DNA of 23,892 nucleotides, from IMG/VR virus record IMGVR_UViG_3300046499_000674, positions 1-23,892 of that record; one strand, given 5' to 3'. The stretch is from a virus. The position numbers and the translations under genes are program-made. The notes beneath the pieces are model-generated. The model ran no database searches. It saw nothing but the letters and a program-made list of their open reading frames with translations, and was not told the DNA's origin. The stretch's first letter is position 1. Each line of letters starts with the position of its first letter. Positions 3,675 to 11,348 of the stretch are shown in pieces.

Positions 3675-4273
3675 GCCGGGGTCTCCTTGGCGTCGTCGCG
3701 GCGTCCGCCTCGCGGGATCGAGTGGAGGTCGCGGACTCGGGCGAGGTTGGCGTCGGTGAAGCCGAAGGGCCGGAAGCGGTCACAGACGGCGCAGCGCCCG
3801 TAGTTGCTGTGTTCGAGGACGGGCACGTCGCAGACGCAGGTGGAGTGCGCCCGCTTGATCGATGAGCAGTCGGCGTGGAACAGGTCTCGTTCGCCCTGCC
3901 ACCAGCGGGCGCGCGGCCCGTCCCACGAATGGGAGTGGTTGACCGAGTCGCCCTTGACGCTGCGGCCGTTGCACCACGCGCAGCGGGTGAGGAGCCGTCG
4001 ACGGAGCTGTTGGAGGGGGCTGATCTGTACGCGCCAGTGGTGGGCGTGGAGCCGCCAGCGTTTCGCCCGGCAGGTGACATCGTCGTAGCCGGACGAGTCC
4101 CGGTGCCAGACGGTGATCAGGGGCGGGAAGTACAGGCCGCGTCCAGCGATCACCCAGAACGGACTGCCGAAACGCCAGCGGATACCCTCCCGGGCTGCCT
4201 GCTTGGTGCGCCAGTCGGCGGTCTCAGGCCAGGGGCGGCGGATCTCGAACGCCACGGTCAGTGGATCATGCAT
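3671..4273 (-). CDS. Streptomyces-phage-type Cys/His-rich protein, unknown function
   Basis: This is a 200-residue protein of a type I recall from many Streptomyces phages and prophages, without a known role. The N-terminus (MHDPLTVAFEIRRPWP) and a Trp/His-rich centre are followed by several metal-type pairs: C98/C101, H115, H133/C136, C146/C148 and C161/C164. It therefore probably folds around two zinc ions. The segment around residues 108-126 (GDSVNHSHSWDGP and a following RWW) is unusual and might be a nucleic-acid-binding or catalytic loop, but that is a guess. It overlaps the stop of the upstream HTH gene by eight bases. Confidence 0.8.
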   Translation of the reverse strand: MHDPLTVAFEIRRPWPETADWRTKQAAREGIRWRFGSPFWVIAGRGLYFPPLITVWHRDSSGYDDVTCRAKRWRLHAHHWRVQISPLQQLRRRLLTRCAWCNGRSVKGDSVNHSHSWDGPRARWWQGERDLFHADCSSIKRAHSTCVCDVPVLEHSNYGRCAVCDRFRPFGFTDANLARVRDLHSIPRGGRRDDAKETPA

Positions 4274-4505
4274 GGTCGGTCTCCTTGGGTTTGATCACAT
4301 GTGCGAGTCCGTCGTCGAGGTCGAGCCAGACGAGCAGCGACACGAGCGCGTCGGCGTCGGGCCGGTTGCCGTCGGCGAGGCGGCTGAACATGGACGGGCT
4401 GACGTCGAGCTGCTCGGCGATCTGCCGCCAGGTCAGGCCCCGTTCCCGCCGCCTCACGTCGAGACGGCGGCGAAGCTCGGGCACGTCGAGGAGATAGGCG
4501 CTCAT
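4266..4505 (-). CDS. XRE-family helix-turn-helix DNA-binding protein
   Basis: This is a 79-residue protein that is essentially one HTH domain. Residues 8-22 form helix 1, LTWRQIAEQLDVSPSMFSRL (24-43) is the HTH with recognition helix at about 36-43, and two more helices follow. The frame extends much further upstream, but ATG 4505 is chosen because AAGGAG lies at the right distance and the ATG overlaps the previous stop as ATGA (4502-4505). It is likely a repressor or accessory transcription factor of the element. No operator can be assigned to it. Confidence 0.85.
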   Translation of the reverse strand: MSAYLLDVPELRRRLDVRRRERGLTWRQIAEQLDVSPSMFSRLADGNRPDADALVSLLVWLDLDDGLAHVIKPKETDHA

Positions 4506-7818: not shown

Positions 7819-8019
7819 TCACGCGGCTGGGCGTCGTCGGCGTTCGTCGCGGGCGCGATGTACCTCGGAGTACGCGGACAGCAGCCGGCTGGTGGCCCAA
7901 CGGTGTCCGCAGGAGGGGCACTGGTAGCCGTGGACGATCGAGTCGCCGCGGCGTTTCTCGGCGGCCGGGGATATGCCGCGCTGACAGCAGTTGGGGCACG
8001 AGTCGGTCATGGCGTTCAC
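7819..8019 (-). CDS. small zinc-ribbon protein
   Basis: This is a 66-residue protein with two knuckles, CPNC near the N-terminus (SCPNCCQRG) and CPSCGHRW in the middle, the classical zinc-ribbon pattern. A basic C-terminal tail follows (RARDERRRRPAA). The GTG at 8019 overlaps the helicase stop as GTGA (8016-8019), so it is co-translated with the helicase; ATG 8010 is an in-frame alternative. It may bind DNA or RNA or assist the replisome; that is inferred only from fold and position. Confidence 0.75.
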   Translation of the reverse strand: MNAMTDSCPNCCQRGISPAAEKRRGDSIVHGYQCPSCGHRWATSRLLSAYSEVHRARDERRRRPAA

Positions 8020-9377
8020 GTCTGCGCCATGTCGACGAAGCGGGAGTAGTGGCCCTGGAAGGCAGTGGTGATCGTTGCCGTCGGGCCGCCGCGGTTCTTC
8101 GCGACGATGAAGTCGGCCTCGCCGGCGCGCGGGGATTCCTTGTCGTAGGCGTCCTCGCGGTGCAGGAGGATCACCATGTTGGCGTCCTGCTCGATCGCCC
8201 CGGATTCCCGGAGGTCGGACAGTAGGGGCTTCTTGTCGGTGCGCTGTTCGGCGCCGCGGTTCAGCTGCGACATGGCGATCACGGGGACCTGGAGTTCTGC
8301 GGCGAGCTTCTTCAGGCTGCGGCTGATCTTCGCGACTTCCTGCTGCCGGTTCTCGGTGCGGCCGGACAGTTCGCCTTCCATCAGCTGGAGGTAGTCGATG
8401 ACGACGAGCCGCAGGTCTCGCTTGCGCTTGATGCGCCGGCAGTGAGAGCGGATCTTCGTCAGCGTCAGGCCGGGGTCGTCGACGATGTCGAGCGGCGCAG
8501 CGTTGATCATCGGCCAGGCTTTGGCGAGGCGGGTCCAGTCGTCGTCCGTCATGCCGTTCTGGCTCTGAAGGTGGTGGAGGGCGACCCGCGCCTGAGCGGA
8601 AGCGATCTTCATCTTGAGCTCGGTGCGGGACATTTCCAGGCTGAAGAACACGGCCGGGAGGCCTTCGACGATCGTCGCGTGGCGGACGATGTCGGTGCCG
8701 AGCGTGGACTTTCCGATGGCGGGCCGGGCCGCGATGACGATGAGCTGGCCGGGCTGAAGGCCGTTGGTCAGCGAATCGAAGTCCGTGAACCCGGTCTTCA
8801 CGCCGCGGGCCGGCCCGTTCTTCTGCAGCTCTTCCAACTGCTCCAGGAAGTCTTCGCCGTCGGCGCCGATGAGGGTGTCTTCGTCGCCGCGGGTGGTGTC
8901 GTCGACGATGCCGTCGACTTCGGCTCGCAGATCGTCGAGGAGTTCCCCGGTCTCGCCTGTGCCGCCGGCGATCTCGTTCAGGGTGCGGTGACAGGCGGCC
9001 TGCAGGTTCCTCAGTACGGCTTTCTGGCGGACGATCTCGGCGTAGTACTCGCCGCTTGTGGCGCTTGGCGCCTGCTGGACGAGGTGGTGCAGGTAGGTGG
9101 CGCCTCCGACTCGGCTGACGTCGCCGGTTTTGGTCAGGTCGTCGGCCAGGACGATCGGGTCGACGGGTGCACCGTCGAGGTAGCGGGCAACGATCGCGCT
9201 GAAGATCGTCTGGTGGGCGGGCCGGTAGAAGTCGGCAGGGTTCTTGATGAGCTCAGTGACGTCGGCGATCGCGTCGCGGGACAGGAGCATCGAGGAGAGG
9301 GTGGCCATTTCAGCGGCCAGGTCGTGCGGGGGCAGGGACTCTCGCTGCGGCTCGGGCTCGTAGTCGTCGTGGGTCAC
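8016..9377 (-). CDS. dnaB: DnaB-type replicative DNA helicase
   Basis: This is a 453-residue protein, full length for the family. Residues about 15-115 are the DnaB N-terminal domain, starting with the typical PPHDLAAEMATLSSMLLS. The C-terminal RecA-like motor has Walker A ARPAIGKST (217-225), H1a-type FFSLEMSRTEL (244-254), Walker B LVVIDYLQL (324-332), a motif with SQLNRGAEQR (370-379), LSDLRESGAIEQDA (386-399) and the KNRGG finger (427-431). It unwinds the fork 5'-3' as a hexamer. The GTG start at 9377 overlaps the loader stop as GTGA. The Walker A has Ala where Gly is usual (ARP rather than GRP), a mild variation unlikely to kill activity. Confidence 0.97.
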   Translation of the reverse strand: MTHDDYEPEPQRESLPPHDLAAEMATLSSMLLSRDAIADVTELIKNPADFYRPAHQTIFSAIVARYLDGAPVDPIVLADDLTKTGDVSRVGGATYLHHLVQQAPSATSGEYYAEIVRQKAVLRNLQAACHRTLNEIAGGTGETGELLDDLRAEVDGIVDDTTRGDEDTLIGADGEDFLEQLEELQKNGPARGVKTGFTDFDSLTNGLQPGQLIVIAARPAIGKSTLGTDIVRHATIVEGLPAVFFSLEMSRTELKMKIASAQARVALHHLQSQNGMTDDDWTRLAKAWPMINAAPLDIVDDPGLTLTKIRSHCRRIKRKRDLRLVVIDYLQLMEGELSGRTENRQQEVAKISRSLKKLAAELQVPVIAMSQLNRGAEQRTDKKPLLSDLRESGAIEQDANMVILLHREDAYDKESPRAGEADFIVAKNRGGPTATITTAFQGHYSRFVDMAQT

Positions 9378-9955
9378 TGAGTGTTGCCCTTCCTGAGGTC
9401 GTCCCCGGTGAAGCGGGCGACGGTGGCGCCGTCGCCAATGCGGGATGCGGCGCGGTCGCCGAGGACGTTGCGGAGTTCGCCGGTGGTCAGGTTCGTCGCG
9501 ATGACCGTCGGGCGACGGTTCTGCCAGCGGCTGTCGATGAGCTCGCTGATGGCGTCGGCCGTCCAGTCGTTGACGGCGCGGGCTCCGAGGTCGTCGATGG
9601 CGTACAGGTCTGCCTCGCGCCACCTGGTGAGCGCCTCGTGGTCGACGGGCCTGTCGGTGGCGATCTTGACGTCGTAGGTGGTGGCGATGCGGAACAGCCC
9701 CTGCCAGCCGCAGCGGATGAGGATCTCGTTGAGCTTCCACAGGTGCCACGTTTTGGTGGTGCCGATCACGCCGGTGAGGATGAGCGATCCGTGGCTGCCG
9801 GCCAGGAATCCGTCCATCCAGGCGCGGACGTCGGTCCTGAGGTTGCCGGGCTCGTTGAAGGCGGCGGGGCGGCGGTCGAGGAACGCTTGGAGGCGGTTGG
9901 CGACGGCTTCGGCTCGGGCCTCGGCCCGCCAGGCGTCGTGGTCGGTGGTGGTCAT
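9374..9955 (-). CDS. DnaC-like AAA+ helicase loader with degenerate Walker A
   Basis: This is a 193-residue, single AAA+ domain protein between initiator and helicase, the place and size of a DnaC/IstB-type loader. Walker A is at 62-69 (GVIGTTKT): the Lys-Thr pair is present but the preceding glycine is Thr. Walker B is LYAIDD (117-122), sensor I is VIATN (151-155), and the sensor II/arginine region is SRIGDG (171-176). It should deliver the helicase to origin single strands. ATG 9955 overlaps the initiator stop as ATGA (9952-9955). Confidence 0.88.
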   Translation of the reverse strand: MTTTDHDAWRAEARAEAVANRLQAFLDRRPAAFNEPGNLRTDVRAWMDGFLAGSHGSLILTGVIGTTKTWHLWKLNEILIRCGWQGLFRIATTYDVKIATDRPVDHEALTRWREADLYAIDDLGARAVNDWTADAISELIDSRWQNRRPTVIATNLTTGELRNVLGDRAASRIGDGATVARFTGDDLRKGNTQ

Positions 9956-10884
9956 GATGCGAACAGGTCCTCAACTTTCGAATTCGTGTAGTCGTCTGCG
10001 GTGTGCGAGTCGACGCGGGATCCGGTGCTGCCAACAGAGCGGAGCTGGGGGCGATTGGCGCGCTCGCTGGCGTACTTGGCTGAGCGGCGGATCCACTTCT
10101 GCCATTCGGCTGGCCAGTTGGGGCGGCGGACGTGCTGGGCGCGGAAGTGGTCGACGAATTGCGCGGTCTCGTAGTCGATGTCGAGGCCGGGGCCGAAGGT
10201 GCGCAGCGACCAGGCACGCATGGCGTCGGTGAGTTCGAAGCCGTCGTCGTCGATCGGGGCGGGGCCGTCAGGCTCAGTGGCGCGCCCAATAGGACGTGAA
10301 CCCTCTCCCCCTACATCAGCCATATCTATGGGGTTCGGGTCGGGTCGGGTCGGGGCGTCGTTAGTAACGCCGTTACGAAACTTGCTGACCTGCGACTCTT
10401 CCTCGAGAACGGCACCCTCTGAAGTCGCCGTCGTGTCGCCGTCGTGCTGCGGTCGTGTCGCCGTCGTGTCGCCGTCGTGCGTTTCGCCGTCTTCCGTAAC
10501 GCCGTTACTGCGCCCGTTACTTGACCCGCTCGGGGGCGGCGTCGGCTTTCCGTTGCGGCGCTTGCGGAACGCCTCCTGCCGCGCGGCGTTCTTCTTCCGC
10601 TCCGCGAGCACCTGGTCGCGCGACGGGTTGTAGTCCAGGTAGTCGTGGATCGCCCAGCCGTCCTCGGTGCGGTCCCACAGGCCGGCGTCCCGGAGCTGCT
10701 GCGCAGTCGCCTTGATATTGCGGACGTTCGCCACCAGCGCCAGCTCGCGGTCGCTGATGTGCCCGTCCGTCAGGTTCTCGGCGCACCAGCACATGGCGGA
10801 GACGTGCAGCCGGAACGCCCGGTCGGACAACAGCGCGATCTTCCGGTGGGAAGGGAAGCGGTCGTCGAGCTTGACCCAGGGCAT
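9952..10884 (-). CDS. replication initiator / replisome organiser (DnaD-like architecture)
   Basis: This is a 310-residue protein. The N-terminal 110 residues (WVKLDDRFPSHRKIALLS onward) form a winged-helix domain of the type found in phage replisome organisers. A long polar linker follows (about 110-215, rich in T, D, G, S, N). The C-terminal helical part (about 215-285) contains AEWQKWIRRSAKY, resembling the DnaD C-terminal helicase-loading module. Its neighbours, a DnaC-like loader and DnaB, support the role. The linker is encoded by DNA full of repeats (10364-10520), so the gene probably carries the origin it acts on, as in lambda O. ATG 10884 has a purine-rich site GAAAGAAG upstream. Confidence 0.85.
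   Translation of the reverse strand: MPWVKLDDRFPSHRKIALLSDRAFRLHVSAMCWCAENLTDGHISDRELALVANVRNIKATAQQLRDAGLWDRTEDGWAIHDYLDYNPSRDQVLAERKKNAARQEAFRKRRNGKPTPPPSGSSNGRSNGVTEDGETHDGDTTATRPQHDGDTTATSEGAVLEEESQVSKFRNGVTNDAPTRPDPNPIDMADVGGEGSRPIGRATEPDGPAPIDDDGFELTDAMRAWSLRTFGPGLDIDYETAQFVDHFRAQHVRRPNWPAEWQKWIRRSAKYASERANRPQLRSVGSTGSRVDSHTADDYTNSKVEDLFAS
10364..10376. repeat. 13-bp palindrome, copy 1
   Basis: GTAACG-C-CGTTAC is a perfect inverted repeat around one central base. The identical 13-mer recurs at 10496-10508. It flanks the tandem 11-bp units and is a plausible dimer binding site for the initiator. Confidence 0.85.
10424..10478. repeat. five tandem 11-bp units (iteron-like)
   Basis: The unit GTCGCCGTCGT occurs at 10424, 10435, 10457 and 10468, with a diverged copy GCTGCGGTCGT at 10446. 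The period of 11 bp is about one helical turn but not a multiple of three. The same bases are therefore read in different frames in successive copies, so protein selection alone does not explain the identity. Confidence 0.9.
10496..10508. repeat. 13-bp palindrome, copy 2
   Basis: This copy is identical to 10364-10376. It is followed six bases later by a half site CCGTTAC (10514-10520). Confidence 0.85.
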
Positions 10885-10977
10885 TGGAGCTTCTTTCGAG
10901 AGGTGTGGTTAAGGACTTCTGGGCGCGCGGAACCAGGGCCTCTAGGGGGGCGCCGATGAACGGCTGACGCTTGCCCC

Positions 10978-11015
10978 GTAGCCAACATTACTGTGGCCAC
11001 AGTAATGTTGGCTAC
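10978..11015. promoter_or_regulatory. perfect 38-bp palindrome in the divergent control region
   Basis: Every one of 19 base pairs matches across the axis between 10996 and 10997; the core is ACTGTGGCCACAGT and the outer arm begins GTAGCCAACATT. It sits between the leftward initiator gene (start 10884) and the rightward HTH gene (start 11062), 47 and 93 bases from the two starts, where both promoters must lie. It is AT-richer than its surroundings. Most likely it is an operator bound by a dimeric or tetrameric repressor. A smaller inverted repeat, CAGTTG-TC-CAACTG (11015-11028), and a 10-bp palindrome, GGCCTAGGCC (11034-11043), follow directly. I cannot place -10/-35 boxes with confidence. 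Confidence 0.85.
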
Positions 11016-11061
11016 AGTTGTCCAACTGGATGTGGCCTAGGCCGTGTGGGACCATGCGGCC

Positions 11062-11325
11062 ATGAGCGAGGAGGAGACCGTGACCCGCCTGAAGGAGGCG
11101 GCCGAGGCGAAGCGTGCCGCCGAAGAGGCCGCGACCAAGCAGTTCGAGGACGCCGTAGCTGCTGCGCTGCTCGAGGGCCTGAAGCCCAAAACGGTGGCCG
11201 CCGCGACCGGCTACAGCTACGAGACGATCCGCCGGATCGCCCGCAAGCGAAACATCGAGCCCCTGCGCGAGCCGACCGTCACCAGCAGGAAGAAAGCCCA
11301 GTCGGCCGACGGCTCCGAGTCCTGA
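11062..11325 (+). CDS. small helix-turn-helix protein, divergent regulator candidate
   Basis: This is an 87-residue protein. The N-terminal half is a charged Ala/Glu/Lys helix (MSEEETVTRLKEAAEAKRAA). The second half has an HTH: LLEGLKPKTVAAATGYSYETIRRIARKRNI, with its recognition helix around the YSYETIRRIARK stretch. It ends in a basic tail. It is the only rightward gene between 3205 and the right end of the window, and it is transcribed away from the replication genes across the palindromic region, as a repressor or Cro/Cox-like regulator would be. The start is uncertain: ATG 11062 has a weak site, while GTG 11080 has GAGGAGGAG (11068-11076) just before it; GTG 11044 is less likely. Confidence 0.8.
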   Translation: MSEEETVTRLKEAAEAKRAAEEAATKQFEDAVAAALLEGLKPKTVAAATGYSYETIRRIARKRNIEPLREPTVTSRKKAQSADGSES

Positions 11326-11348
11326 TCGCACGTCCCCTCCTCTCGTCC

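Follow-up and report, generated by a model that had tools for sequence, protein, structure and literature searches.

A perfect 38-bp palindrome beside viral replication genes as the probable operator of an exchangeable regulator cassette

Introduction

Why does a viral genome carry a perfectly symmetric sequence of 38 bp between leftward replication genes and a lone gene that points rightward? The window analyzed here is a whole 23.9-kb IMG/VR record (23,892 nucleotides, 70% GC) that shows no DNA similarity to described phages and has no close described phage. In a preliminary description, the palindrome was suggested to be the master operator of an early switch, a protein-binding site in a divergent promoter region, a cruciform, or a recombination site.

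Results

The palindrome, GTAGCCAACATTACTGTGGCCACAGTAATGTTGGCTAC, occupies positions 10978–11015 and pairs at 19 of 19 positions with no spacer, as had been claimed. About 1e-6 such palindromes with 19-bp arms are expected by chance; the longest arm in 60 first-order Markov simulations was 11 bp and all other zero-gap palindromes in the window have arms of 7 bp or less. No viral contig searched, besides the window, has the exact 38-bp palindrome. It folds strongly as single-stranded DNA. The reading as an intrinsic terminator was rejected, since the site does not combine a GC-rich stem with a downstream run of T residues. The conserved core is formed by the outer arms, GCCAACA (10981–10987) and TGTTGGC (11006–11012), which are spaced 26 bp centre to centre. 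Two further inverted repeats noted earlier are also present and, like the palindrome, are not assigned to a strand. The first is a 14-bp dyad (11015–11028; CAGTTG-TC-CAACTG, 6-bp arms and a 2-nt centre) with GTTG/CAAC half-sites one helical turn to the right of the palindrome's right arm; most relatives retain its GTTGNNCAAC core. The second is a 10-bp perfect palindrome, GGCCTAGGCC (11034–11043), the place of which is taken by GATGTGGCCACATC or GGATGTGGACACATCC in other relatives.

The described setting, with leftward replication genes on one side and a lone rightward HTH gene on the other, also holds. A RepA-like replication initiation gene (9952–10884, minus strand) is first in the leftward operon, and its start and the left edge of the palindrome's core are 94 nt apart. 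A DnaC-like loader (9374–9955) and DnaB (within 8016–10289) are encoded leftward as well. To the right of the HTH gene, genes are again leftward and include C5-methylase, WhiB-like, and exonuclease VIII-like genes. Searches of the window for tRNAs and Rfam families gave no match, and no integrase was detected in this fragment. Three rightward genes at 10–2280 (DUF6907, methyltransferase-like, and CYTH domain) stand apart from the phage block and could represent host sequence next to a prophage. The other HTH protein named in the preliminary description, at 4266–4505, has an HTH_31 domain, and nothing found in the analysis connects it with the palindrome.

The rightward gene (11062–11325, plus strand) encodes a small HTH regulator of 87 aa, recognized from a weak HTH_23 match and from close family members. 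The layout of the protein is a long N-terminal helix, an HTH, and a basic tail; in an AlphaFold2 model (81 residues from a GTG start; mean pLDDT of 75), the long helix and an HTH pair are formed and the basic tail is disordered. Searches of the PDB by sequence or fold (Foldseek) returned generic HTH matches alone, none of which is significant, and the window protein has no match in described phages or plasmids. The protein is a possible match to the phrog_34713 profile (E value of 0.0014), and values for family members go down to 3e-22. Among Streptomyces genomes, the family is found in 12 of 393 with one profile (E 1e-6) and in 33 of 383 with a broader profile (1e-5). By eye, some homologues (L051/L073, L058/L077, and L099, 889–1356) seem to carry an additional GIY-YIG-like domain at the N-terminus, and a similar gene comes after the HTH gene in L012/L099; such fusions and neighbors may bear on cassette movement. 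Family members in L074, L080, L082, and L091 have two tandem HTH units in one protein.

The palindrome is strictly linked to this gene. Relatives of the HTH gene were gathered first, and all 12 have TAGCCAACA-like arms, 18 bp apart, upstream of the gene. The converse test was a scan with an arms-only pattern, TAGCCAACA-N18-TGTTGGCTA. Each of 15 matches in viral contigs has the HTH gene exactly 47 bp rightward. Nine matches were found in bacterial genomes: two in Streptomyces have the HTH gene at 47 bp, and seven in unrelated bacteria are without it and look like chance matches. Thus, every HTH-linked match (17/17; 15 viral contigs and two Streptomyces genomes) ends 47 bp before an ATG. Across 393 Streptomyces genomes, the pattern occurs solely upstream of the HTH gene family, and phage records with a zero-mismatch site have one copy. 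Strict linkage at a fixed distance from an adjacent regulator gene is the pattern expected of an autoregulatory operator.

Absence of the palindrome from close relatives with the same gene order had been proposed as evidence against a function. Relatives with the HTH gene have the palindrome, and relatives that retain replication genes without the HTH gene lack it. For example, the initiator of L003 is 78% identical to that of the window, yet L003 has no site within three mismatches; the site therefore goes with the HTH gene and not with the initiator. In L019 and L021, the palindrome adjoins C5-methylase genes. Loss or replacement of the site together with the regulator is seen in L003, L004, L005, L006, and L009, as well as in the comparison of regulator classes below.

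Edges of similarity delimit a region that is exchanged. DNA similarity of the window to L015, L016, L017, L021, L026, and L045 extends from 10978–10979 to near the HTH stop codon. In L003, the rep gene and leader match the window up to 10951 and are followed by a Phd/YefM-like gene without a palindrome. In L004, a different HTH gene occupies the slot and the match resumes at 11329, 4 bp past the HTH stop. The slot is bordered by a conserved leader element, GGGCGCGCGGAACCAGG (10921–10937, minus strand; CCTGGTTCCGCGCGCCC in the leftward reading). In the window and in related loci (L025–L136), the leader element GGGCGCRCGGAACCAGR is 32–44 nt before the start codons of many different leftward genes of Streptomyces phages, and it may act in the leader as a site at the level of RNA or for a protein. 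A scan with the element found 42 stretches, six of which look like unrelated chance hits. In 35 loci, including the window, there is a recognized regulator; these form seven classes, each with its own upstream operator motif, and because motifs were chosen after inspecting the sequences, the table of classes shows consistency and is not a blind test. Regulators in the slot of related phages are predicted to be leaderless and are of another HTH class, Phd/YefM-like, or, as assigned by eye, RHH-like. Of the four classes labeled Phd/YefM, three were confirmed with Pfam and the fourth fell below the cut-off.

The start of the HTH gene is marked by a promoter-like signature. Among family members, 25 of 28 carry the pattern TGn-nAnnnT 5–7 nt ahead of the ATG, as do 0.5% of all ATGs in the window. 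In the window, the proposed extended -10 (TGG-GACCAT; 11050–11055, plus strand) is 6 nt before the ATG, and its GACCAT is a weak match to TANNNT in the correct position. The HTH mRNA therefore looks leaderless, as we propose; in S. coelicolor, leaderless transcripts account for 21% of primary start sites, and the -10 box is usually TANNNT (PMC4895711). A GTG at 11080, which has a Shine-Dalgarno-like GAGGAGG, is a possible but less favored start; the ATG at 11062 is preferred because the leaderless signature is conserved there. With this start site, the 14-bp dyad is a proposed secondary site over the -35 region and the 10-bp palindrome is within the promoter spacer. No consensus sigma-70 promoter was found on either strand, and for this reason the leftward promoter was not located. 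The leftward start codon is mostly 91–102 nt from the site, though the leftward genes differ. Just outside the site, the leftward leader has a hairpin with a conserved CGCCA-type loop (10948–10968, minus strand); its stem is weak in the window and covaries in relatives (22 cells in which both sides changed, a value reached in 0 of 500 shuffles).

Symmetry is less conserved than the arms. The perfect symmetry that was first reported is real in the window, but only the outer arms, GCCAACA/TGTTGGC, are the conserved feature, being invariant in 14 of 14 distinct sites. Across these sites, 82% of dyad cells are paired, compared with 77% after shuffling, both sides have changed in 14 cells, and the inner pairs 12–27 and 16–23 are unpaired in 11 of 14. 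Near-perfect symmetry is confined to the window and its nearest relative, L011, while sites of other relatives are quasi-palindromes with 13–15 of 19 pairs. The window and L011 have a common, distinct, and fully symmetric centre, in which the inner half-sites of the window are TACTGTGG, and a single paired change, T-A to C-G, separates the two. Perfect symmetry is thus derived and belongs to one small lineage. The left half, TAGCCAACATACACTTG, varies less than the right half, which suggests an overlapping promoter or an asymmetric site. Half-sites are also repeated upstream of the gene in several more distant family members, commonly as the GCCAAC type and in others as the TTGCAA or GCGAA types; in some members they clearly outnumber those in shuffles, and in others they do not. 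In Streptomyces phage TurkishDelight, an inverted repeat near gp91 (L091:12884–12928; 22-nt arms, 91% complementary, 1-nt spacer) is just upstream of an unrelated small HTH gene.

Discussion

We conclude that the palindrome is probably the operator of a divergent, autoregulated regulator cassette that would control the replication operon. Strict linkage, the 47-bp spacing, presence in single copy, and exchange of regulators along with their operators all favor the earlier suggestion of an operator in a divergent promoter region that is probably bound by the protein encoded at 11062–11325. In the mechanism we propose from these comparisons, the small HTH protein whose gene begins 47 bp rightward would use the palindrome as its cis-operator. 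The protein, probably a dimer formed through its long N-terminal helix, would bind the inverted TAGCCAACA/TGTTGGCTA arms and thereby repress the divergent leftward replication operon, the leader of which begins beside the left arm. Weaker dyads at the -35 and in the spacer of its own leaderless promoter would allow the protein to limit its own synthesis. Operator and gene would together be one ∼350-bp cassette, swapped as a unit. The distance between arms is a point against this reading as stated, since 26 bp is long for a simple dimer. A cruciform would not be needed for function because relatives keep merely a quasi-palindrome.

Either quasi-palindrome correction or selection for symmetry could have made the site perfect. 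That template switching corrected an ordinary imperfect operator, rather than selection having favored perfect symmetry, has in our estimation nearly an even chance of being the right explanation. This is compatible with the operator reading and bears solely on why the site is perfect. The quasi-palindromes of relatives (13–15/19), the single paired change between the window and L011, and the strong folding as single-stranded DNA are consistent with it, and published accounts describe such mutations in E. coli and yeast. However, neither old arm is an exact match to the new inner arms, which would call for several template-switch steps, and selection for a symmetric second half-site is expected to leave the same pattern.

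The main alternative to an operator bound by a repressor is that the same operator is bound by an HTH protein that is mainly an activator, which from a class I position upstream of a weak extended -10 would turn on its own gene, the replication operon, or both. Relative to the proposed HTH start site, the palindrome spans about -84 to -47 and is centred at about -65, which would also suit an activator, and there is no recognizable -35 on either strand. Conversely, the smaller dyads lie over the -35 and in the spacer of the HTH promoter, and Phd/YefM-like and RHH-like proteins, families usually known as repressors, occupy the same slot. We regard activation as the main role as unlikely and favor repression.

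Control by this operator is probably not the master lysis-lysogeny switch, as had been suggested, because two relatives have HTH or Xre-type genes beside the integrase, 10–12 kb away. In L100, translations inspected by eye show that an Xre-type repressor gene and a divergent Cro/Xis-like pair adjoin a tyrosine integrase about 10 kb from the palindrome, and in L099, inspected in the same manner, HTH genes are beside an integrase about 12 kb away. The palindrome of relatives is thus not located beside a repressor/integrase module. A tyrosine integrase is present in seven of 10 examined records (eight of the 10 hold the HTH gene), and where both are present, it is at least 11 kb from the palindrome and HTH gene. 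This distance, along with the fixed 47-bp spacing to the HTH gene that the site tracks, makes the earlier suggestion of a phage attachment or other site-specific recombination site highly improbable, even though long dyads can be recombinase sites and an edge of the cassette coincides with the palindrome in several relatives. Equally improbable is a part of a replication origin bound by the RepA-like initiator; its location 94 nt upstream of the initiator gene fits, but it is absent from L003 despite the similar initiator and present beside C5-methylase genes in L019 and L021.

As an operator, the palindrome is nothing unusual. What it brings to light is a recurrent arrangement, in which a fixed leader element precedes a leftward operon and an adjoining slot, linked to control of phage replication, swaps unrelated small leaderless regulators along with their operators. 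We found no description of such a cassette system in the literature searched, which is not proof that there is none. In a possible but still doubtful interpretation, the slot would give Streptomyces temperate phages a second locus for immunity or copy control, one that acts on replication and is distinct from the integrase-linked switch. Unrelated regulator/operator pairs of several HTH classes and of the Phd/YefM-like and RHH-like kinds would be swapped there as cassettes beside a constant leader element. If so, the pairs would define incompatible specificities, as in heteroimmune regions. For Streptomyces, the slot is also a natural source of regulator/operator pairs that probably do not cross-react, and it provides a testable role for Phd/YefM-like proteins as phage regulators.

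The locus resembles lambda OR and the 33-34 region of mycobacteriophage BPs (PMC4557955) in that the proposed operator is intergenic and separates a regulator gene from its divergent operon, and, as with these repressor operators of temperate phages, regulator and operator vary together. Unlike them, it is away from the integrase, is apparently not the main switch in the relatives examined, and combines an 87-aa regulator and a predicted leaderless promoter with a single site that has two arms 26 bp apart; in BPs, a tetramer recognizes two half-sites in five genome regions (PMC4557955). The autoregulated operators of Phd/YefM antitoxins are a second point of comparison, because related phages carry Phd/YefM-like genes in the same slot, each with its own upstream motif, whereas the regulator of the window is an unrelated HTH protein. 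Closest in protein family are phrog_34713 and gp102 of TurkishDelight, which are connected to the window protein via other members (best E 3e-22). The upstream repeats of gp102 differ from those of the window, but its gene is likewise a lone rightward gene within a leftward block.
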